Origin: a virus
Reading direction: 5' to 3' (one strand)
DNA length: 40,732 nt
Virus record (IMG/VR): IMGVR_UViG_3300034072_002233
Span: 1-40,732 of that record
The translations under genes and the position numbers were made by a program. Positions 3,326 through 38,607 of this stretch are shown here, in pieces. The notes beneath the pieces were generated by a model. It was not told where the DNA came from, did no database searches, and worked only from the letters and a program-made list of their open reading frames with translations. Numbering within the stretch: the first letter of the stretch is position 1; each line of letters starts with the position of its first letter.

Positions 3326-3341
3326 CACATAAATTTATGTG
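3326..3341. promoter_or_regulatory. 16-bp perfect palindrome at the end of int2
   Basis: CACATAAATTTATGTG is a perfect palindrome and very AT-rich for this DNA. It overlaps the int2 stop codon (3335-3337) and lies about 150 bp upstream of com on the minus strand. It could be a protein-binding site or the core of a promoter for com-dam. No function is shown. Confidence 0.45.
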
Positions 3342-4507
3342 TTCAACATCGCGCCCCAACGCTCGAACAGGCTGCGACGTTGGTCGAGCAGCTGGGCGCG
3401 ATTATAGGCGGCCTCACTTTCGCTGGCGCCCTTGGGTGCATGGGCCAGCGCCAGATCGATCGCGGCGCGTTCGAGCGGGAACCGCTCATTCATGATCGTC
3501 GAAAAGGATGCGCGCCAGCCATGGGGGACGTGGCGGCCGGCATAGCCCGCGCGCTTGTAGAGCGCGCCGATCGCCGCCTCGTTGATCGGAAACACCGCGC
3601 CGGATCGGGTATCATACCCGATCTTCTCGATCTCTTTCAGCACAGCGACGGCCGCGTCGCTGAGCGGTACGATATGATCATTAGCGGCGTCGGCCTTGCG
3701 CGCCTTCTTCAGCTTCATCCGCTCGGCCGGGATGCGCCATAGCGGAGCGGCGCCGTCGAGATCCTCGAATTCTTCCCAGCGCGCGCCCAGCAGCGCGCCC
3801 ATCCGCACGGCGGTCAATGCCAGGAAGCGCGACGCCAGGCGCACGATCGGCGGGCCGCCGGCGCGATCGCACGCGGCGAGCAGCGCGCGCAGCTGGTCGA
3901 CATCGAGGAGAGCGGGCTGGTGGCGCGCGATCGGCGCGGGCCTTAGCGCGCGCGTCACGACGGCGGCGGGATCCTGGTCGATCAAGCCTTCAGCGATCGC
4001 GAAGCAGAAGACGGCCGAGATCCGTTGACGGATGCGCCGGGCCGTCTCGATCGATCCGCGCGCCTCGATGTCGCGCAGGACCTGCAGCACTGCCGGCGCG
4101 CCGATCGCGCCGATCGGCATGGCGCCTAACTCGGGAAAGACATCGCGCGCCAGGCTGTCGATGACATCGGCGCCGTGGCGCTCGGTCCAATGCTCCAGCT
4201 GCAGGGCGTGCCACTGACGCGCGACAAATTCGAACGTGCAAATTTGCACGGCGACTTTCCGCACCGACGGATCCACGCCCTGGGCGACCAAGCCGCGCGC
4301 GCCTTCGGCGCGATCGCGTGCGTCGACCAGCTGCAGGTCGGGCCATTGGCCCAGGCACAGCAGCTTCTCCCGGCCATCAATTCGATAGCGTAGCCGCCAG
4401 CTGCGTAGGCCGGTCGGCGTGATGAAAAGGAAGAGGCCGCGTTCATCGAACATTTTATAGGCGCGCGATCGCGGCCGCGCGGCTTTCACCGCGGCGTTAC
4501 TGAGCAT
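3335..4507 (-). CDS. int: P4-type tyrosine integrase (int2)
   Basis: This is a second, intact P4-family integrase of 390 residues. The DUF4102 arm-binding domain occupies about residues 1-90 (FDERGLFLFI) and the catalytic domain about 200-390, with Arg235, Lys265, His329/Arg332 (HGWR), His356 and Tyr368 in AYNR. No break or missing residue is seen. The ATG at 4507 has no clear ribosome-binding site. Upstream, beyond the divergent gene at 4541, lie direct repeats and a hairpin (4836-4875) that could be recombination sites. Downstream come com and dam on the same strand. Two complete integrases in one phage-size element are unusual; which one drives integration cannot be told from sequence. Confidence 0.93.
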   Translation of the reverse strand: MLSNAAVKAARPRSRAYKMFDERGLFLFITPTGLRSWRLRYRIDGREKLLCLGQWPDLQLVDARDRAEGARGLVAQGVDPSVRKVAVQICTFEFVARQWHALQLEHWTERHGADVIDSLARDVFPELGAMPIGAIGAPAVLQVLRDIEARGSIETARRIRQRISAVFCFAIAEGLIDQDPAAVVTRALRPAPIARHQPALLDVDQLRALLAACDRAGGPPIVRLASRFLALTAVRMGALLGARWEEFEDLDGAAPLWRIPAERMKLKKARKADAANDHIVPLSDAAVAVLKEIEKIGYDTRSGAVFPINEAAIGALYKRAGYAGRHVPHGWRASFSTIMNERFPLERAAIDLALAHAPKGASESEAAYNRAQLLDQRRSLFERWGAMLNT

Positions 4508-4876: not shown

Positions 4877-5059
4877 CTAGACTTGGCTTTCGGCTTGATC
4901 CTCGCTAGAGCGACCGGGATCCCGACGCATTCTGTCATCGCGGCGTGCGTCGGGGTCACCTTCCCGCGTCAGGCGATCAATCGCCGCCTGGGCGAATGCC
5001 ACGGCGATGGTGCGGCCGATCCAGGCCGCGATTTTTCCGACCGGAATCTTCATGCGCAT
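4877..5059 (-). CDS. Small protein after the endolysin
   Basis: This 60-residue protein has a moderately hydrophobic N-terminal helix (about residues 8-27, KIAAWIGRTIAVAFAQAAI) and a very hydrophilic, Arg/Asp-rich tail. It overlaps the end of the endolysin gene by 10 bp, so it is likely co-translated and late. The position is where lysis accessory proteins or spanins are found, but there is no lipobox and no convincing transmembrane segment with a long periplasmic domain. Function unknown. Confidence 0.5.
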   Translation of the reverse strand: MRMKIPVGKIAAWIGRTIAVAFAQAAIDRLTREGDPDARRDDRMRRDPGRSSEDQAESQV

Positions 5060-5649
5060 TTCTCCAGGGGGACGTTGCCAATCCGCAGGTTGACCCAGCC
5101 GTTGCGGAAAACCTTCAGCTTTGCATTCGCCGCGATCAGTCGATCATATTCGGCCAGCTGCTTGGCATCGAGGCGGGGGATCATGGTCCGGCACAGCAGG
5201 ATGCGCTGACAGGTGCGGAAGCCGGCGACGGTCGCCGGGCCGACCTGGCCGTCCACCTTCAGCTTCAGCGTTGGGCAGACTTCGTTGAGCGATTGCTGGA
5301 AGAAGCGCGACGGCCGCGCCGGGCCCATATTGACGCTGGTGTCGAACAACTCGGTGGTGACCGCCGGATCCAGGTCGATCAGCGGGACGAAGCCGGGCTT
5401 CACCAGATAGCCCTGATAATAGATGCTGTTGACGACGGCATCCGGGATCGACTTCATCGGGCCGGTATAGCCATATTCGACGGCGACCTTCTTGGTGATC
5501 CCTTTGTTCGTCTCGCCGCCCGGGTCATTGGGGTGGTTCACATAGCCGCCTTCGACCTTCTTGGTCGGCGCCATGATTTCCAGGGCGATCGGCGACAAGG
5601 CAGTGAGCGCCGCGGCGGAGGCCGCGACGACAATCTTAATCTTGCTCAT
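5050..5649 (-). CDS. Endolysin, glycoside hydrolase family 108
   Basis: This 199-residue lysozyme-like enzyme cuts the glycan strands of peptidoglycan. The family signature EGGYVNHPNDPGGETNKGIT covers residues 33-52, with Glu33 the likely catalytic acid. A C-terminal peptidoglycan-binding-like region (residues 130-165) contains KVDGQVGPATV. Residues 4-26 form an Ala-rich, weakly hydrophobic segment after a Lys-rich start, as in signal-arrest-release endolysins, so secretion may not need the holin. It lies 4 bp downstream of the holin gene. Assignment is firm. Confidence 0.92.
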   Translation of the reverse strand: MSKIKIVVAASAAALTALSPIALEIMAPTKKVEGGYVNHPNDPGGETNKGITKKVAVEYGYTGPMKSIPDAVVNSIYYQGYLVKPGFVPLIDLDPAVTTELFDTSVNMGPARPSRFFQQSLNEVCPTLKLKVDGQVGPATVAGFRTCQRILLCRTMIPRLDAKQLAEYDRLIAANAKLKVFRNGWVNLRIGNVPLEKCA

Positions 5650-5653
5650 GATG

Positions 5654-5833
5654 TCAGTCCTTTCGGCCGGTCAGCCGCTTGGCGGTGTCGGTTTCCCAGA
5701 TCCGGATCGCGGTCCAGATGATCGTCATCAGCGCGGCGATCGAGGGCAGGATGTTGGCGATCGTGCCCAGCAGGACGCCAAAAGAGAGGCCATCGGCGAC
5801 GTGTTTCATCGCCGCCTGGTCAAAGTCGTTCAT
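5654..5833 (-). CDS. Holin
   Basis: This 59-residue membrane protein has a hydrophobic block at about residues 15-45 (SFGVLLGTIANILPSIAALMTIIWTAI) and a charged C-terminus (WETDTAKRLTGRK), as in small phage holins of the T7-like class II group. The ATG at 5833 begins the family-like MNDFDQ segment; the upstream extension is not hydrophobic and crosses a GC-rich hairpin leader. It is directly followed by the endolysin. Holins time lysis by opening the inner membrane. The call rests on size, topology and position. Confidence 0.82.
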   Translation of the reverse strand: MNDFDQAAMKHVADGLSFGVLLGTIANILPSIAALMTIIWTAIRIWETDTAKRLTGRKD

Positions 5834-5912
5834 TTTGCTGTCTCTGCTGTTATGGGATTTGCGACCCAAGCGTGACGACGCGCGGGTTGCCGGCTGCTCA
5901 GCGGTTGCCGGC

Positions 5913-5957
5913 GATCCCGGCGCCTGAACCGTGCTGTTGCAACCAGGCGCCGGGATC
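5913..5957. promoter_or_regulatory. 14-bp perfect stem-loop ahead of a small plus-strand gene
   Basis: GATCCCGGCGCCTG (5913-5926) pairs exactly with CAGGCGCCGGGATC (5944-5957) around a 17-nt loop. It lies between the holin and the 47-residue gene at 5977, and ends 9 nt before that gene's ribosome-binding site. No T tract follows on either strand. It may terminate or slow late transcription, or act as a leader structure for the plus-strand gene. Confidence 0.55.
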
Positions 5958-5976
5958 ATTGGGTAACGGAGGACAG

Positions 5977-13947: not shown

Positions 13948-14564
13948 CAGGCCCGCTCCAACACGTCAAACACCAGGCCCACCGTCCGCCGCATGTCGAT
14001 CGGCCATGAGAAATTGTCGCCCACGATCCAGCCGGCGATGACCGGGCGGCGGATTTCCACCGGCTCGCCGCCCAGCAGCTTTCGCCGCAGCGGGCGGGTC
14101 AGTGTCAGCAGTCCCGCGCCATTGTCGTCCAGGATCGTCTCCGCCCCGGCGAAATAGAGATAGGGGTGGCCCCCACGTTCGATGTTGAACGCCTGGCCCA
14201 GCTTCACCGCATAGCCCGGAGAGGCGTCGGTGATCTGAACCGTGCGGCCACCGGCATGGGCGCCCACGATCGTGATCGGCGTACCGTCAGCGCGCATCGG
14301 CGCGCCGACATCGAAATCCACCTGCGAATATTCGAACAGCGCGCCATATTCCTTGGCCATCTGCGCCTGGGCCACCAGCTTGCGCCCGTCAGGTTCCATC
14401 CGCTCGGGCGGCAGGGTGAACTTGGCCGTATGGCCGCCGCCCAGACGGCCGATCCGGTTGGTGAAGCCGCCCATCACCGGCTGCTGCAGGACACCGGGGT
14501 CGGGCATGCCAGGCTCGGCCAGCTGCACCCTGATGTCGCGCAGATCGACAGGGTCGAAGGTCAT
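13947..14564 (-). CDS. Minor tail (distal-tail region) protein
   Basis: This 205-residue protein directly follows the tape measure, with a TGATG stop-start overlap at each end of the gene. The sequence is beta-rich with many Gly and Thr turns (GGFTNRIGRLGGGHTAKFTLPP; VKLGQAFNIERGGHPYLYFAGAETI). Its place matches distal tail or GTA gp12-type proteins that close the tail tube and seat the tip. I do not recognise a specific family. Confidence 0.65.
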   Translation of the reverse strand: MTFDPVDLRDIRVQLAEPGMPDPGVLQQPVMGGFTNRIGRLGGGHTAKFTLPPERMEPDGRKLVAQAQMAKEYGALFEYSQVDFDVGAPMRADGTPITIVGAHAGGRTVQITDASPGYAVKLGQAFNIERGGHPYLYFAGAETILDDNGAGLLTLTRPLRRKLLGGEPVEIRRPVIAGWIVGDNFSWPIDMRRTVGLVFDVLERA

Positions 14565-17011
14565 CAGCGGCGGCCCATGCGACGCGACGCACGCCGATCG
14601 CGGCGGCGGTTGCTGTCGGAGACGGCGCCGGCGGCGTTCTGGCGGCTGATCGGATCGGCGACCATGGCGGCGCGGCCATCGACCACGACATCGAAATAGG
14701 GCGACGGGACGATCTGGGCGATGCCACTACGGTAGCTTCCACCACCATTGTCATTCGCGATCGATAGGCGTTCGCCATAGCTGACATTAGCAATCGGCAG
14801 ACCGTTGAGCGATAGCACGTTACGATCGATGCCCTGGCGGCCCAGGACGGTCATGTCGCCGCCACCCGCAAAGCTGAATGCGCCTGACGCGTTTCGCGTG
14901 GCGACGTCGGCGGCCATGCTGTTGACGTTCGCATAAGCGGTGTCGATCGATCCGGAGAGCGAACTGCCGCCACCGAGTAACCGGCTGCCAAGTTTGAAGA
15001 TGCCACCGAGCAGGCCGCCCCCGCTTCCGCCGCCCACCGCCTGCTGCGCCTGGAACTTGATGAGGTCCGAGATCAACTGATTGAAAAGCTGGCCCGCCAG
15101 ACCCTTCAGTTTGAGCGTGTTCGCCGCAGCATCGCCCAGGCCATCGACCATGTTCTGGATCCCGTTGGCGGCAATATTCTCATAGGCCTCGTTAACCTCG
15201 GCCGCCGTGTCCGGAATGCTGTCGAAATAGCTCTCGAGCGGACCCATGGTCTGGCGGTTGATCTGCAGCGTGCTGCTTTCGCGCAGAGCTCCGAGTTGGT
15301 CCAGCTTCGCCTGGGCCAGCTTCTTTTCAGCCTCGGTGCTGTCATGGCGCGCCAGCACCTCCTCGGCCGACAGGCGCATGCTCTCCAGCTCATTGTCGAG
15401 CAGAGCCAGCTGCGTGGCCCGCCGCTCGACGGCCGTCGTGGCGAGCGACGCGCGGATCTGCAGCATCTCCTGTTCGCGCGCCAGGCTGTCCTGCGCCGTG
15501 CGGGTTTCCTCCGCCAGCAGCGCATCGTCCAGCTTCCAGTTGACCCGGCTATGCTCCAGTTCGGTGTTACGGTCGTTGGCCAGCTTCAGCTGCTTTGCCT
15601 GGGCGTCGGTCAGTTCACCCTGCTTCACACGGCTGTCGACGTCTGCGTTATAGGCGTGCTGCGCGCGATCGATTCGTTCATGCTCGATCTGCGCCTGGTG
15701 GCGCATATCCGACGTCAGATCCTGCTGCAGGCCGAGCTGGTCGTCGTAGAGCCGTGCCAGCTCGCGCTGATACCGCTCGTTCAATTCTTCGGTCCGATCC
15801 TTCGGCCCCTTTCGGGTGCGGCCAGGATTGGGGACGGGCAGCGCTCCATCGGGCGCAACTGATGTGGCAGGACCGGCTTTGCCATTGCTGTAGGAAATGG
15901 CTTGCCACAGGAGGCTGGTCTGACGCTGTACTTCAGCGGTTGCAGTTTCTAGAGTGCCGCCCTGAATGTTGCTATCGCCTGTATGACGGAAGGAAATCAG
16001 GGAGTTGTCAGCTCCTGCCTTCTGTCTCTCTTCCATCTCAGTTTTGGCTGACCTCAGGGCCTTCATCCGAAACTGAAGATCCATGTTCGCGTCAGCTTTA
16101 CTGCGCGCCATATAGTCGCCACCGATTGCACCGCCGATGCCACCCACGAGGGCGCCGGGAATGCCAAACCGGGATCCGAGGGTGATACCGGTGAGTGCTG
16201 CTGAGAGGCGAGGATATTCGTCGATATATTCGAGAGCCTTCGACGTCAGTGTCGCAAGCGCATTTGCCATGCCTAGGATCGCGCCGGCATTTTTGGCTAC
16301 AGCTTCAGCAAAGCGGGTGTCGAGCGTCAGCTTGATCTCGGCCAGCCGATCATTGGCCTCGGACGCGCCATCCGCCAGCTCGTCCGATAGCACCAGCCCG
16401 AGATCGCGCGCGCGCTGGCGCATCGTCTCTATTCCCCGGCTGCCTTGCGTCAGAAGTCCGTCAAGCTTTTGGCCCGTGTCACCGAACAGCTTCATCTCGA
16501 TCCGTGCCCGAGTGGCGGGGTCCTTGATCTTGGCGATCGCGTCGGCCAGCTTCGGCAAAACTTCCCCTGCCGAATAGACCCGGCCGTTAACGTCCTGCAC
16601 AGCTACGCCAAGGTCGCGGAAGACCGTCGCCTGCTCCTTCGTGCCGGCTTTCGCTTCCCCGATGGTCTTTGTCAGCTTCTTCAGGCTGTCATCCATCTCC
16701 TTCTGGGTAAGGTCGGCCTGGCTCGCCACATAGCGATATTCTTGCAATTCGCGGCGGCTGACACCAGCCTCGCTGGCGATGCCTTTAAGGGAGCCGGCAT
16801 AGTCGAGCGCGCGTTTCGTGGCCTGCACCGCTTCCACACCGATAAAGGCTGTTGCCAGATCCCCGATCGCTGCACGAACACCGCCGACTTCCTTCTTGAT
16901 GATCGCTGCGTCATTCTTGATCTTGGTGGTGGCGCGCGTAGATCCATGCTCGAACTGCGAAGTATCGAAGCCTAGCGTGACGCGAAGAGCGCCTATAACG
17001 TCTTTCGTCAC
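14564..17011 (-). CDS. Tail tape measure protein
   Basis: This 815-residue protein begins with the GALRVTLGFDTSQFEHG segment of phage tape-measure proteins, followed by long Ala-rich helices, a hydrophobic glycine-rich segment at about 270-310 (ALTGITLGSRFGIPGALVGGIGGAIGG), a Pro/Gly break near 400-410, a second coiled-coil region rich in Glu, Arg and Gln (about 410-590), and a Gly-rich end. Tape measures set tail length at about 0.15 nm per residue, which predicts a tail near 120 nm, normal for a siphovirus. The GTG at 17011 has AAGGAG 5 nt upstream. A small opposite-strand membrane gene separates it from the chaperone. Confidence 0.9.
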   Translation of the reverse strand: MTKDVIGALRVTLGFDTSQFEHGSTRATTKIKNDAAIIKKEVGGVRAAIGDLATAFIGVEAVQATKRALDYAGSLKGIASEAGVSRRELQEYRYVASQADLTQKEMDDSLKKLTKTIGEAKAGTKEQATVFRDLGVAVQDVNGRVYSAGEVLPKLADAIAKIKDPATRARIEMKLFGDTGQKLDGLLTQGSRGIETMRQRARDLGLVLSDELADGASEANDRLAEIKLTLDTRFAEAVAKNAGAILGMANALATLTSKALEYIDEYPRLSAALTGITLGSRFGIPGALVGGIGGAIGGDYMARSKADANMDLQFRMKALRSAKTEMEERQKAGADNSLISFRHTGDSNIQGGTLETATAEVQRQTSLLWQAISYSNGKAGPATSVAPDGALPVPNPGRTRKGPKDRTEELNERYQRELARLYDDQLGLQQDLTSDMRHQAQIEHERIDRAQHAYNADVDSRVKQGELTDAQAKQLKLANDRNTELEHSRVNWKLDDALLAEETRTAQDSLAREQEMLQIRASLATTAVERRATQLALLDNELESMRLSAEEVLARHDSTEAEKKLAQAKLDQLGALRESSTLQINRQTMGPLESYFDSIPDTAAEVNEAYENIAANGIQNMVDGLGDAAANTLKLKGLAGQLFNQLISDLIKFQAQQAVGGGSGGGLLGGIFKLGSRLLGGGSSLSGSIDTAYANVNSMAADVATRNASGAFSFAGGGDMTVLGRQGIDRNVLSLNGLPIANVSYGERLSIANDNGGGSYRSGIAQIVPSPYFDVVVDGRAAMVADPISRQNAAGAVSDSNRRRDRRASRRMGRR

Positions 17012-17041
17012 AGGAACTCCTTAAGGCAAGCGGGGGATTTT

Positions 17042-17317
17042 ATGAGCGCGATCTGGCAAGTTGTCGCATTTCTGGCCGCACTGGTTGGCGGCTTCCTGGT
17101 GCTGGGCAGTCTGGCGCCAAGTTACAGCGCGCCACAGACGGCCGCTCAGGCGGCAGTGGGCATCGGGATCGCGGCAATTCCATATTTCATCGCGTCAATG
17201 GCTCAGCGCGCTGAAATGACCCGGTTTCTTAAGCGGGCAGAACGGACGGAAGAGAAGACGGGAGATTCCGATTCAGTCGCTGCGCGGGTGAAGGACTTTC
17301 TGGTCGGCCGAGACTAG
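17042..17317 (+). CDS. Small membrane protein inserted between chaperone and tape measure
   Basis: This 91-residue protein has two clear transmembrane segments (about residues 5-26, WQVVAFLAALVGGFLVLGSL, and 36-54, AAVGIGIAAIPYFIASMA) and a charged cytoplasmic tail. It runs on the plus strand, against all surrounding tail genes, and fills the gap exactly: its TAG and the TAG of the frameshifted chaperone share the four bases CTAG at 17314-17317. A GGGGGA stretch lies upstream of the ATG. It must be transcribed from its own promoter, probably inside the tape-measure gene. Chromosomal small membrane proteins of this look are common, so it may be a captured cargo gene. In HK97 the superinfection-exclusion protein gp15 lies in the same slot. 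Confidence 0.75.
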   Translation: MSAIWQVVAFLAALVGGFLVLGSLAPSYSAPQTAAQAAVGIGIAAIPYFIASMAQRAEMTRFLKRAERTEEKTGDSDSVAARVKDFLVGRD

Positions 17318-18005
17318 GTCTCGGTGACAACCTGACCATATGTGGCCGCAAAGGCTTTCATACGGTGCCAGGCGATCTCAGGATCTTCCTCCTCACCCCT
17401 GGCTTGACGCAGCACGTCGCCGAGCGAATCCAGCTTCTCACTGAAGGCTGACCACCGCGCATTATGCCAGCTGATCTCCAACAGCATCAGCTGTTCGCGC
17501 TTCACTCGCTCGCCGTGACCCGCAAGTGCGCTGCGCAAGGTTCGAGGTGTCTGGTCCCAATAGCTATCGGGGTCGAAACCAGCCTCGCACCAGCGTTGGT
17601 GGAGCTTCAGCCAGTCCCAGTCTTCTTCTGCTTGGCCTTCGTCTTGACCTTCGCATCCGTAGGGTTTGGTGGCTTCCTCTCCTCCGCCGTCCCGAATGCG
17701 CTGGCCAGGCCAGCAAGGATTGCCACGTTGAAAATAGCGGGCCCATATTCCTCGATCAGCTCGCCGACCTGATAGAGATGATAATCCGGGTGATGTTTCC
17801 GGAGCCCCGCCCAGATCAGAACGCGGATCGTGTCCAGTGCCGGACCTGAGTGGGGGTCCTCCAGATCATCTAGGATCGCCCGTGATTTCTTCCCTAGCAT
17901 CGGCTCGGCAGCGCACAGCGCATTGACGCCCATTTTCAGCGTCAGCCTGATGGCCGCCTCGCCCTTGCCCAGGATGAGTGGCGCTTCACCGCGCAGCGGA
18001 TTCAT
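17314..18005 (-). CDS. Tail assembly chaperone, frameshifted long form (GT-like)
   Basis: A -1 shift at the heptamer 17661-17667 joins the short chaperone to an overlapping frame that stays open to the TAG at 17314-17316, giving about 230 residues. The extension is a convincing protein (DWDWLKLHQRWCEAGFDP, then a helical HGERVKREQLMLLEISWHN segment), of the size and character of the lambda T domain that contacts tube subunits. The extension has no good start of its own. Lambda-like phages make the G and GT forms in a fixed ratio to load the tape measure. The frameshift is inferred from frame relation and heptamer. Confidence 0.78.
17607..18005 (-). CDS. Tail assembly chaperone, short form (G-like)
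   Basis: This 132-residue protein lies between the tail tube and the tape measure, the standard slot for the chaperone. It is mostly helical (ILGKGEAAIRLTLKMGVNALCAAE; YQVGELIEEYGPAIFNVAILAGLAS), similar in layout to GTA gp10-like tail chaperones, and ends in a Lys-rich disordered tail after the slippery site. It shares a TGATG junction with the tail-tube gene. The short form is probably the major product. Confidence 0.8.
   Translation of the reverse strand: MNPLRGEAPLILGKGEAAIRLTLKMGVNALCAAEPMLGKKSRAILDDLEDPHSGPALDTIRVLIWAGLRKHHPDYHLYQVGELIEEYGPAIFNVAILAGLASAFGTAEERKPPNPTDAKVKTKAKQKKTGTG
17661..17667 (-). promoter_or_regulatory. Programmed -1 frameshift site AAACCCT
   Basis: On the minus strand the heptamer reads A AAC CCT in the zero frame, the canonical X XXY YYZ form. 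After slipping, the tRNAs re-pair on AAA CCC. It lies about 18 codons before the zero-frame stop (17607-17609), and the -1 frame is open across the site and on to 17314. This is the standard G/GT device of long-tailed phages. Confidence 0.82.
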
Positions 18006-18436
18006 CAGGCGGCCTTCGCGGAATGGGCTGCCATGCCGCTCGCCTGGAAGTTCAACACCGCTTCCTGTTTGCCGGTGAGCGGCATGTCCTGCGCGACATA
18101 GCCGGTCAGGATGGCATTGCCGGCGACTTGGCGCTTGGCGCCGGCTGCGCCATTATGGACCGACCGATAGGGTTTGGGATCCAGTACCGCCAGCATCGCC
18201 AGCAGCTTGGTATCTGCGTCGGATCCGGAGAGATAGTTGATCCGCACCGTCAGGGTACCCGGCTCAAGCAGGACCTCGCCCTTGTAGGTATGGGCGCCCT
18301 CGGTCTTGTGATGCGAGTCCTGATAGGTGGGCCGGGTCGGGCTGCTGGGCGTCACCGACAGCACCTCGGGGATTTCAAACTCTTCGCCGGCCACGTCGGT
18401 GAAGAAGAATTCTACGCCGAAATTCGGGTTCGACAT
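18005..18436 (-). CDS. Major tail tube protein
   Basis: This 143-residue protein directly precedes the chaperone. It has a short beta-rich fold (VEFFFTDVAGEEFEIPEVLSV; GTLTVRINYLSG; GNAILTGYV) with an Ala-rich end, like the small tail-tube proteins of lambda V/HK97 gp12-type phages. One copy number-rich gene in this slot is expected. The ATG at 18436 follows an AAGGAGT-like ribosome-binding site in GAGTAAGGTCC. Order in the module makes this assignment fairly secure. Confidence 0.82.
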   Translation of the reverse strand: MSNPNFGVEFFFTDVAGEEFEIPEVLSVTPSSPTRPTYQDSHHKTEGAHTYKGEVLLEPGTLTVRINYLSGSDADTKLLAMLAVLDPKPYRSVHNGAAGAKRQVAGNAILTGYVAQDMPLTGKQEAVLNFQASGMAAHSAKAA

Positions 18437-31174: not shown

Positions 31175-31425
31175 CACCCAATTAGCCTCTTTTCGATCCA
31201 GTCATTGAACTTGTCCGTGGCTGCGTTGATCTCGACCATGCCTTCGTAGCTCGCATCGATATCGGCTTTGGCAATTTTGCCATCCTGCCAAAGATTGAGG
31301 AGTAGCCTGAAATTTATATAGTTATGTTTCGCCTGTCGGGATAACATATTCGCCAAGTGGAGGAGTAGATCGTCTTCGTTGATGATCAATCTCCTAGATT
31401 CCTTTTCGGTGTTGTCTTCACTCAT
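31174..31425 (-). CDS. Small acidic protein behind the repressor
   Basis: This 83-residue acidic helical protein (INEDDLLLHLANMLSRQAKHNYINFRLLLNLWQDGKIAKADIDASYEG) starts at an ATG with GAGGTG 6 nt upstream and overlaps the end of the repressor gene by 8 nt. It is likely co-expressed with the repressor in the lysogen. No family is recognised. Confidence 0.6.
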   Translation of the reverse strand: MSEDNTEKESRRLIINEDDLLLHLANMLSRQAKHNYINFRLLLNLWQDGKIAKADIDASYEGMVEINAATDKFNDWIEKRLIG

Positions 31426-31840
31426 TACTTTCACCTCGAATATCATTCGTGCGATCGTGCAACGTTGCGCCTTGGGGCGCGCCGCCCGCGTGAACCGTTT
31501 CGGACGGCTGAGCACCTCCCGCCATCGACCGGGCTATTTGCAGCAGGGCGCGGCGATCGGCCGGGGCGAGGTGACCGAAGTGTTCCATCATTTCCCGAGA
31601 TTCAGAATCCGCAGCAGGGGGAGCGGGCGCATCCTCGTTTGGATCATCGACCTCGCCCTCTAGGTAGGCTGGCGTCGTCCCCAGTTCGCGCGCAATGCGA
31701 TGCAGATAGCGCGAGCCGCTACTGGCACCTTGGAATAGCTTGGCAATCGTCTGTTGAGAGACGCCCACGCGCCGCGCCAGTTCTGCTTGGGAGATCTGGC
31801 GCTCTCCCATCACATCTCGCAGGCGGTCAGAATAGATCAT
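31418..31840 (-). CDS. XRE-family phage repressor (CI-like)
   Basis: This 140-residue protein has an N-terminal helix-turn-helix of the XRE/Cro-C1 family (RQISQAELARRVGVSQQTIAKLFQGASSGSRYLHRIARELGTTPAYLEG, about residues 14-62). The rest is a Pro-rich linker and a helical region; there is no S24/LexA peptidase domain, so induction probably works by another route. It is divergent from the Cro-like gene across 102 bp with overlapping palindromes. It very likely keeps the lysogenic state. Confidence 0.85.
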   Translation of the reverse strand: MIYSDRLRDVMGERQISQAELARRVGVSQQTIAKLFQGASSGSRYLHRIARELGTTPAYLEGEVDDPNEDAPAPPAADSESREMMEHFGHLAPADRRALLQIARSMAGGAQPSETVHAGGAPQGATLHDRTNDIRGESNE

Positions 31841-35894: not shown

Positions 35895-36160
35895 CCGACG
35901 AACAAGCCTATCGCCCATCCAACGGCAGCGAGGGCATGGCCTTCATTGCGCGCTGGTGCGACCGTTGCCGCAGCAATCAGGGCGGGGAGGCGGGCTGCCC
36001 GATCCTGTCCGCCACCATGGCCTTTCAGCTGTTCGATCCGGAATATCCCAGCGAGTGGCGTTGGAATGAACGCAGTGGGCCGCGCTGCACTGCCTTCGAA
36101 GCGCTCGATCAGTTCGAACAGCCGTTTGATCCTGCCGCCGCGATCGGACTGCTGCTGTGA
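35891..36160 (+). CDS. Conserved small Cys-containing phage protein
   Basis: This 89-residue protein has ARWCDRCRSNQGGEAGCPIL, then FQLFDPEYPSEWRWNERSGPRCTAFEA. The Cys set (CxxC plus two more) could hold one metal. Proteins with this pattern are common in phages of alphaproteobacteria; I know no function. It ends in GTGA, so translation could continue into the frame that leads to the ParB-family gene. Confidence 0.65.
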   Translation: MTDEQAYRPSNGSEGMAFIARWCDRCRSNQGGEAGCPILSATMAFQLFDPEYPSEWRWNERSGPRCTAFEALDQFEQPFDPAAAIGLLL

Positions 36161-36299
36161 AGACCGCCGCCCTCTGCGCCTGCGCGGTCTGCCACGCGCT
36201 CGATGCGCAATTTCCGAATGAAGGGCGTCAGCTCACGCTGATCGCCTCCCCGAAACGCCCGCCTGCCAACGCCGATAGCTCACCCCGGCAGGCGAAGCG

Positions 36300-36337
36300 G
36301 GTCCGGACCGATGCGTTGCCCTGTGTCGGTCCGGACC
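36300..36337. promoter_or_regulatory. Two GGTCCGGACC palindromes ahead of the ParB-family gene
   Basis: The 10-bp palindrome GGTCCGGACC occurs at 36300-36309 and 36328-36337, 28 bp apart centre to centre, within the 230 bp before the likely ParB-family start. They may be operators or parS-like sites. The same stretch stays open in the ParB frame back to a GTG at 36157 (Cys-rich MKTAALCACAVCH start), so it could alternatively be coding. Confidence 0.5.
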
Positions 36338-36390
36338 AAACTCCCCCTGAAAACCCACGCACAAAGAGGTGCTTATCCAGGAGAAGTCCC

Positions 36391-38607
36391 ATGTCCGTTA
36401 CCACGATGACGATCGACGCGCTATGCGTCTCCCCCTTCAATTGCCGCACCAACGAAGCCGACGCCAATGCCGTCCAGGGCATGGCCGATTCCCTCGCCGC
36501 GCGCGGCCAGCTCTATCCGCTGGTCGTGCATCCCATGTCGTCCAAGCGGGCGAAGAAACCGAAATATGGCGCGCTCGCCGGCGGCCGCCGCTACCGCGCC
36601 TTCGCCAAGCTGATCGCCGAGGGCAAGCTGCCCGCCGACCATCCTATCGAGGTCATCGTCCGCGACATCACGGATGAGGGCGAACTGCGCGAACTGAGCC
36701 TGGCCGAGAACCTGGTGCGCCGCGAGCTGCGCGCCTATGAAGTCTATGCCGCTGTTGCGCGCGCCCATAATGGCGGCGCCGGCCGATCGCTAAAGGACAT
36801 CGCCGACACCAACGGCCAGACGGTAGAGACGGTGCGGCAGTGGCTGCGCCTCGGCAATCTTCACCCCACCATCTTCGCTGCGCTGGAAGCTGGCGAGATC
36901 ACGCGCGAGCAGGCGAAGGCGCTCGGCGCCACCGAGGATGTCGCGCTTCAGCTGCACGTCTTCGAACAGATTGCGCGCTATGACGCGAACGACTGGCGCC
37001 GCGGCCCGGCGGAGATCCGCAAGCTGATGAAGATCGGCGATCGCGAGCTGGAGAAGATGCTCCGCTTCGTCGGCGAGGAAGCCTATCACCACGCTGGCGG
37101 TCGCTATGAGCTCGACCTGTTCGCCGACGATGCACAGCAGCGCGGCCGCGTCACCGACGAAGGCCTGCTGCTGCAGCTCGCCGACGAAAAGCTGGATGCG
37201 ATCCGCACCCGCGTCCGCCGCCAGACCGGCCGCGAGATCCGTTTCGAAACGCAGCCGCCGCAGCTGACGATCAGCGGCTATAACCAGGGCGAGGATCGCA
37301 GCCTGGAAATCATCGCGCAGGCGCAGCCGGCCGACGCGGCCGATGCGCAGTGGATCGCCCATGTCCGCTACGAGATGGCGCTGCACGAAGCGCGCGCCGA
37401 AGCGGCGCTGGCCGACGAGGAATTGTCGGACGATATCCGCGCCCACATCATCGCCGCGATCGACGAGGTCTATGAGCCGCTGGAAAACGAGCTGGCCTAT
37501 CTCGAAGATCGCATGACGATCGACCTGCCGGCGGGCCAGGTCTTCGCCACCCTGATCGTCGATGCCGATGCCAATGCGCAGCTGCGCTTCTGGTGGGCCG
37601 ACCGCAAGGCCAAGGCCAAGGCGGAAGCCGCCGCCCGCAAGCTGCCCGACGCGCCCGCGCCCCGGCCGGTGTCGGCCGGACCAATCGGCACGGCGCAGGC
37701 CGGCGCCGACGCACCGCGCCCGATCGTCCAGCCCGGCGCCGCCATCAACACGGGCGCCGGCTATGACCAGCGCGCAAAGGCCGACGCGCTGATCCGCGAC
37801 GAACAGGGGCTGACCGCCGACGGCGTCCAGATCATGCGCTCGATCCGCCGCGAGACGCTGCGCGCGGCCATGCTCAACGAAGCGTGGTCGGCCTGTACGC
37901 GCCGTGGCACCAGCGTTGCGCTCGACTATCTGCTCTGGTCGCTGATGCGCGATCGCGTCACCAACGCGGATCTGGCAAGCACCCGGTCGGAGGATCGCGG
38001 CCTGCTGGGCTTTGCCTATGTCCATGCCCCGCTGATCATCGGCGCGGGCGATCATCTCCAGCGCACCGAAGCGCACAAGATATGGCGTGCGGCCGTCGAT
38101 CGGTTGAAGGATCATCCCTCGGTCGCCGACAAGGATCTCGTCCAGGCATTCGACGCCTTCCGGGCAGAGGACTGGGCATGGAAACAGGAGGTGGCGGCGA
38201 TCGTCGCCGGCTGCGCCCTGGTCCGCTCCGCCAATGCCGCCGGCTACGAGGTGGAACTGCACGATCATATCGCGTTGCTGACCGGCTATGACGATCCGTT
38301 CAAGCTACGCGGCCTCGTCGAACCGACCGAGGAGCTGCTCGACCTACTGCCTAAGGCCAAGCAGCTGGAGCTGGTCCATCCCCATGTCAGCAACGGCGAA
38401 TATCTCGCCCTGGAAAAGCTGAAGGCGGCCGAATTGGTTGGGCCCGTCACCCGCGCGCTGAAGAAGGCCGCCGGCTGGGTCCACCCCATGCTGCAGTTCA
38501 GGCCGCGCCTCGCGGCTGTCGCCATCCGCGTGCCGACCTGCGCCACCCACATCGTCTCCACCGCCTATGAGGAGGCCGCGGCCGAAGCCACGGAAGAAGC
38601 CGCATGA
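36391..38607 (+). CDS. Large ParB-family DNA-binding protein
   Basis: This 738-residue protein has the ParB N-terminal domain: GGRRYRA at 64-70 (the CTP-binding GxRR motif), ENLVRRELRAYE at 106-117, and a helix-turn-helix at about 130-155 (SLKDIADTNGQTVETVRQWLRL). The remaining 580 residues are mostly helical, with an Ala/Pro-rich linker near 405-455, and I recognise no further domain. The ATG at 36391 is set by AGGAG 7 nt upstream; a GTG at 36157 would add 78 residues. There is no parA in the window. Similar large ParB proteins are found on alphaproteobacterial plasmids and prophages. Roles may include regulation, DNA compaction or segregation. Confidence 0.85.
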   Translation: MSVTTMTIDALCVSPFNCRTNEADANAVQGMADSLAARGQLYPLVVHPMSSKRAKKPKYGALAGGRRYRAFAKLIAEGKLPADHPIEVIVRDITDEGELRELSLAENLVRRELRAYEVYAAVARAHNGGAGRSLKDIADTNGQTVETVRQWLRLGNLHPTIFAALEAGEITREQAKALGATEDVALQLHVFEQIARYDANDWRRGPAEIRKLMKIGDRELEKMLRFVGEEAYHHAGGRYELDLFADDAQQRGRVTDEGLLLQLADEKLDAIRTRVRRQTGREIRFETQPPQLTISGYNQGEDRSLEIIAQAQPADAADAQWIAHVRYEMALHEARAEAALADEELSDDIRAHIIAAIDEVYEPLENELAYLEDRMTIDLPAGQVFATLIVDADANAQLRFWWADRKAKAKAEAAARKLPDAPAPRPVSAGPIGTAQAGADAPRPIVQPGAAINTGAGYDQRAKADALIRDEQGLTADGVQIMRSIRRETLRAAMLNEAWSACTRRGTSVALDYLLWSLMRDRVTNADLASTRSEDRGLLGFAYVHAPLIIGAGDHLQRTEAHKIWRAAVDRLKDHPSVADKDLVQAFDAFRAEDWAWKQEVAAIVAGCALVRSANAAGYEVELHDHIALLTGYDDPFKLRGLVEPTEELLDLLPKAKQLELVHPHVSNGEYLALEKLKAAELVGPVTRALKKAAGWVHPMLQFRPRLAAVAIRVPTCATHIVSTAYEEAAAEATEEAA

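Follow-up and report, generated by a model that had tools for sequence, protein, structure and literature searches.

What role might a small membrane protein gene play when it lies in the middle of the tail genes of a phage but is read in the opposite direction? This question is raised by an ORF located between the genes for the tail-assembly chaperone and the tail tape measure protein (TMP) in the viral record IMGVR_UViG_3300034072_002233, the whole of which (40,732 nucleotides) was analysed and is called the window here. The ORF, referred to below as the slot gene, starts with ATG; all of the head and tail genes identified around it are on the − strand, and it is on the + strand (Table 1). 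The ORF itself, the PHROG assignments of its neighbours and the hydropathy of its product confirmed the description given in the initial annotation, namely a membrane-type gene of opposed strand placed exactly between the chaperone and the tape measure. The presence of both an integrase and a repressor indicates that the phage is temperate, and its host is probably a Sphingomonad-type bacterium, an assignment based on the relatives L016 (a Sphingopyxis metagenome-assembled genome, MAG) and L017 (Sphingobium) rather than on the record of the window itself. Near its left end, the window encodes two tyrosine integrases alike in architecture (1-1251, +, and 3335-4507, −), one of which may derive from a neighbouring element or from the host flank. 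ParB_N and HTH_ParB domains occur together in a protein of 816 aa (36157-38607, +), in what is otherwise an integrase-bearing phage.

Table 1 Features of the window that bear on the slot gene, with the basis of each assignment.
Feature	Position	Strand	Basis
Slot gene, PHROG 12304 family; predicted inner-membrane hairpin, 91 aa, basic C-terminal tail	17042..17317	+	Sequence, profile match, hydropathy, model
Divergent gap between TMP start and slot-gene start, 30 bp; G-rich ribosome-site-like run at 17032-17037	17012..17041	+	Sequence
CTAG common to slot-gene stop (+) and chaperone-extension stop (−)	17314..17317	.	Sequence
Tail tape measure protein (TMP)	14564..17011	−	PHROG tape-measure families, E down to 5e-28
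Tail-assembly chaperone, zero-frame part	17607..18005	−	phrog_2115 tail, E 1.6e-12
Chaperone −1 frame extension	17314..17660	−	Sequence, heptamer
A_AAC_CCT slippery heptamer	17661..17667	−	Right frame in 8/8 related chaperones checked
Probable tail tube protein	18005..18436	−	Weak Pfam match; position, conservation
Tyrosine integrase	3335..4507	−	Evidence for temperate phage
Phage repressor-like HTH protein	31418..31840	−	Domain match
Glycosyl hydrolase 108 endolysin	5050-5649	late strand	
Holin-like gene adjoining endolysin	5654-5959	late strand	

The window has 64% GC and contains many non-coding ORFs as long as the slot gene, so that length alone is no proof of a gene; the proof comes instead from the conservation of sequence, slot and strand. 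Between the window and its relative L002, the slot genes differ at 20, 16 and 56 sites in codon positions 1, 2 and 3, respectively. Across the window and the relatives L002, L003 and L016, the dN/dS ratio was about 0.05-0.2, and the N-terminal 57 residues, which include both hydrophobic segments, were the most constrained part of the protein. Because the gene overlaps its neighbours at the stop only, this selection is its own. These data confirm that the ORF is a genuine gene on which purifying selection acts. As had been noted at the outset, its stop codon (TAG on the + strand, 17315-17317) does share bases with that of the chaperone extension (− strand, 17314-17316), and the shared CTAG of the window is replaced by TTAG in L002, L003 and L016. 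At the other end, any promoter of the slot gene must lie within the divergent gap or in the 5′ end of the TMP gene. An E. coli-type scan found no sigma-70-like site, a negative result that carries little weight where the host is a Sphingomonad. No synonymous-site constraint was found in the TMP 5′ end that would point to a conserved antisense promoter, and no terminator-like site was found for the gene.

The slot protein has one clear hydrophobic segment by the Kyte-Doolittle scale (residues ~1-28) and a second (~35-55) that is weaker in the window protein and clear in the remote homologues. AlphaFold2 placed helices at residues 2-22 and 30-74, in a low-confidence model (pLDDT 65) built from a 3-sequence alignment. 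The uncharged N-terminus and loop, together with the basic C-terminal tail, suggest by the positive-inside rule a hairpin with both termini inside the cell. The protein matched PHROG 12304, a small phage family without assigned function, with an E-value of 9.1e-6 (residues 1-55 on profile positions 1-54 of 67), as did the remote homologues in G398 (3.6e-4), G400 (4.9e-6) and G346 (3.5e-10), so that all of them are members of this family. The members have in common a hydrophobic first helix, the motif A-x-Q-x-x-A-x-x-A and, within the second helix, a P-Y pair, whereas the window-type proteins differ from the PHROG in having an extra basic C-terminal tail that ends in KDFLxGRD. Comparison with Pfam, NCBIfam, PADLOC and PDB gave nothing or sub-threshold noise, and the PADLOC defence models showed no homology to the slot protein. 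Searches with tblastn also returned nothing, either in phages (with the window protein, the L003 homologue and two remote homologues as queries) or in plasmids (with the window protein), which is weak evidence, since low-complexity filtering probably hides proteins of this kind.

The initial annotation had set against its own proposal the possible outcome that the gene belongs to a family widespread in chromosomes whose role is known and unrelated. This outcome was not borne out, as the family proved to be rare: profile searches with loose cut-offs detected it in 0 of 240 Alphaproteobacteria, 1 of 249 Pseudomonadota and 6 of 398 Sphingomonadales genomes. Not all of these matches are real, and, on the other side, the counts are lower bounds, since short membrane proteins are easily missed. 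The profile matches in G166 and G233 were discarded because they lie inside longer, evidently OmpH-like genes, as was that in G657, which lies inside a 422-aa frame. Two remote members (G272 and G593) are chromosomal. The member in the G398 prophage is opposed to the TMP gene but lies at its 3′ end and not in the chaperone/TMP slot; there (L031:10802-12056), a gene resembling a P22_AR_N antirepressor adjoins it and is likewise opposed to the TMP gene. In G346, the member shares a small island with genes for an integrase and an excisionase/AlpA-like protein (L049:7350-9833); the island is possibly a satellite.

A search for the insert in the same slot elsewhere, as the initial annotation had proposed, was successful. 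L002 and L003, found in viral-contig scans, carry homologues with 68% and 64% amino acid identity to the window protein, and L016, which came from a genome scan, is very close to L003; all three keep the slot, the opposed strand and the overlapping stops. Remote PHROG 12304 homologues, also opposed and in the same slot, were found in L054 (the G400 prophage), L055 and L056. Furthermore, the slot of Sphingobium sp. AP50 (L004/L017) and of L008 is occupied by an opposed two-helix protein (family B; 35% identity between the two) that is unrelated to the window type (family A); treatment of A and B as one family was rejected by hhalign (probability 0.2%). The AP50 slot holds, in addition, a zinc-ribbon membrane gene (UPF0547), again opposed, and a second start resembling that of the TMP. 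This second start (MANDIIGAVRVTLRFDTSD) precedes the real one by ~0.5 kb, and the UPF0547 gene lies between the two (L004:6947-7500), an arrangement that is a duplication or insertion scar. In L036, L037, L042, L043 and L046 (all Sphingomonadales) as well as in Paracoccus phage Shpa, by contrast, the slot is empty, and the chaperone region abuts the TMP gene without room for an insert. As the same junction is filled in some phages and empty in others, the chaperone/TMP slot is a moron site.

Every slot insert seen in this analysis is opposed to the late operon, although the inserts represent few independent insertions, perhaps three, so that the common orientation alone is weak statistics. The companions of the membrane gene provide another line of evidence. 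In L054, HicA (PF07927, 3e-11) and HicB (PF05534, 8e-19) genes precede it on the same strand, while in L055 and L056 this place is taken by genes for a RelE toxin (PF06296, ~1e-9) and an HTH protein. Closely related prophages thus hold different toxin-antitoxin pairs at one position (L054:3322-3929 versus L055/L056:3304-3923), antisense between chaperone and TMP. The TMPs of L054 and L055 are 95.6% identical, and homologous DNA starts again ~55 bp ahead of the membrane gene, which shows that the toxin-antitoxin module was swapped and the membrane gene kept with a short leader. Toxin-antitoxin pairs work only if they are expressed in the lysogen; therefore, in the prophage, the opposed strand at this site is probably active. 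The opposed strand as such and the leader retained through the swap are further indirect hints that the membrane gene may be expressed independently from the prophage.

The TMP next to the slot has a mixed ancestry, with conflicting histories for residues 1-350 (the slot side) and 401-815. Between the window and L008, residues 401-815 are mostly 82-98% identical, whereas identity over residues 1-350 is 37% to 72%, except for residues 101-150 (84%). Over residues 1-300, the window TMP shares 74-90% identity with that of L003. In the tree of residues 1-350, the family-B carriers L004 and L008 grouped together (UFBoot 97% without G400 and 89% with it), while in the tree of residues 401-815 the window grouped with L008 (UFBoot 100%). 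The B-type slot gene therefore goes with the N-terminal half of the TMP and not with its C-terminal half, a pattern that plain physical linkage predicts as well and that does not imply co-adaptation.

Given that the gene adjoins that of the TMP, that the phage is temperate and that HK97 gp15 offers a precedent, superinfection exclusion at TMP-dependent DNA entry is the best single proposal for the function of the slot gene. In this tentative reading, to which we assign a probability of roughly 0.45, the gene is an opposed moron of a temperate siphovirus. Its orientation against the late operon would allow it to be made from the prophage while the tail genes are silent, and the product, a small inner-membrane hairpin, would protect the lysogen when a related phage attacks, by interfering as the TMP of that phage creates a passage for DNA across the inner membrane. 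In the lytic cycle, transcripts of the late operon would cross the slot antisense to the gene and should shut it down.

The precedent is informative both in its likeness and in its differences. HK97 gp15 is a predicted inner-membrane exclusion protein, which is escaped by hybrids with the tail tube and TMP genes of HK022 (PMC10883804). As the initial annotation had pointed out, gp15 occupies the same place, between a frameshifted tail chaperone and the TMP gene, and it too is a very small predicted inner-membrane protein of a temperate siphovirus. This positional part of the parallel held, but homology did not: the slot protein gave no BLASTP alignment with gp15 at E<=100, and hhalign gave a probability of 0.4%. 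Moreover, gp15 has 62 aa, one hydrophobic segment and a charged tail, and its gene is co-directional with the tail genes and followed by a putative terminator. The slot gene, judged from these comparisons, is not a member of the gp15 family (PHROG 5031 versus PHROG 12304), and by analogy its product may nevertheless work like gp15. Ltp of TP-J34 and Sie2009 of Tuc2009, compared here by description, are prophage-made and membrane-bound and stop DNA injection of long-tailed phages, as is proposed for the slot protein, and the exclusion by TP-J34 is overcome by changes in the TMP (PMC10883804). They differ in having Gram-positive hosts, and Ltp is a lipoprotein.

Several observations speak against exclusion, among them that the slot protein has no homology to gp15 or to any PADLOC defence model, that the promoter scan and the synonymous-site analysis were negative, that the G398 member lies at the TMP 3′ end, and that a few relatives are found in chromosomes or on the small island with an integrase. 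A serious, if somewhat unlikely, alternative is that the slot gene is a lysogen-expressed moron of other use, whose membrane protein would affect host fitness, stress or membrane physiology rather than phage entry. All of the anatomy described above would fit this equally well, relatives do exist outside phages (the G593 and G272 chromosomes and the G346 island), and the HicAB and RelE-HTH neighbours show that the slot accepts general cargo. Plain cargo, however, does not predict that an unrelated two-helix protein of the same size class should fill the same slot and strand beside the TMP gene, nor does the grouping of the B-type gene with the TMP N-terminal half favour it. A prophage defence that acts after entry, on the tail assembly of the invader, is very unlikely. 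Its model is Tab of Pseudomonas phage JBD26, which, in the excerpted account of PMC10884400, is a moron product of 83 residues that blocks tail assembly with the TMP as its target. Tab is thus a small moron of similar length to the slot gene, which for its part adjoins both chaperone and TMP; but Tab, compared by description, interferes with virion assembly inside the cell, its gene lies towards the head end of the late operon, and no membrane segment is reported for it in that excerpt, whereas the slot protein is a predicted two-helix membrane protein. Highly improbable, too, is a lytic-cycle membrane protein (a holin, antiholin or tail-assembly helper) that stands on the other strand by chance: a pair of hydrophobic helices with a basic tail is a holin-like build as well, but the late strand already carries an endolysin and a holin-like gene, late transcripts run antisense to the slot gene, and phages with an empty slot exist. 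That the ORF is spurious, as the supply of non-coding ORFs of such length at this GC content might allow, is a negligible prospect already contradicted by its low dN/dS, its third-position bias and the retention of slot and strand across divergent phages.

Beyond superinfection exclusion by the slot protein itself, an extended version of this reading can be formulated, in which the slot would be a locus of self-exclusion specificity where an opposed, prophage-expressed membrane protein is co-adapted and exchanged with the TMP N-terminal half, with toxin-antitoxin pairs joining the cassette. We consider this version unlikely. Three things are new here: unrelated inserts all keep the opposed orientation, the toxin-antitoxin companions have been swapped, and the TMP is a mosaic that makes the hypothesis testable. 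Because mosaics such as the window and L008 combine near-identical TMP C-terminal halves with different N-terminal halves and slot genes, the part of the TMP that an exclusion protein would read can be tested directly. If the exclusion reading is true, exclusion proteins of unrelated families lie next to the TMP gene in different phage lineages, and the opposed strand would provide this Sphingomonad phage group with a simple switch that is on in the lysogen and off in the lytic cycle. The chaperone/TMP slot would then be a place to look for unrecognised prophage defence genes in the phages of Sphingomonadales.
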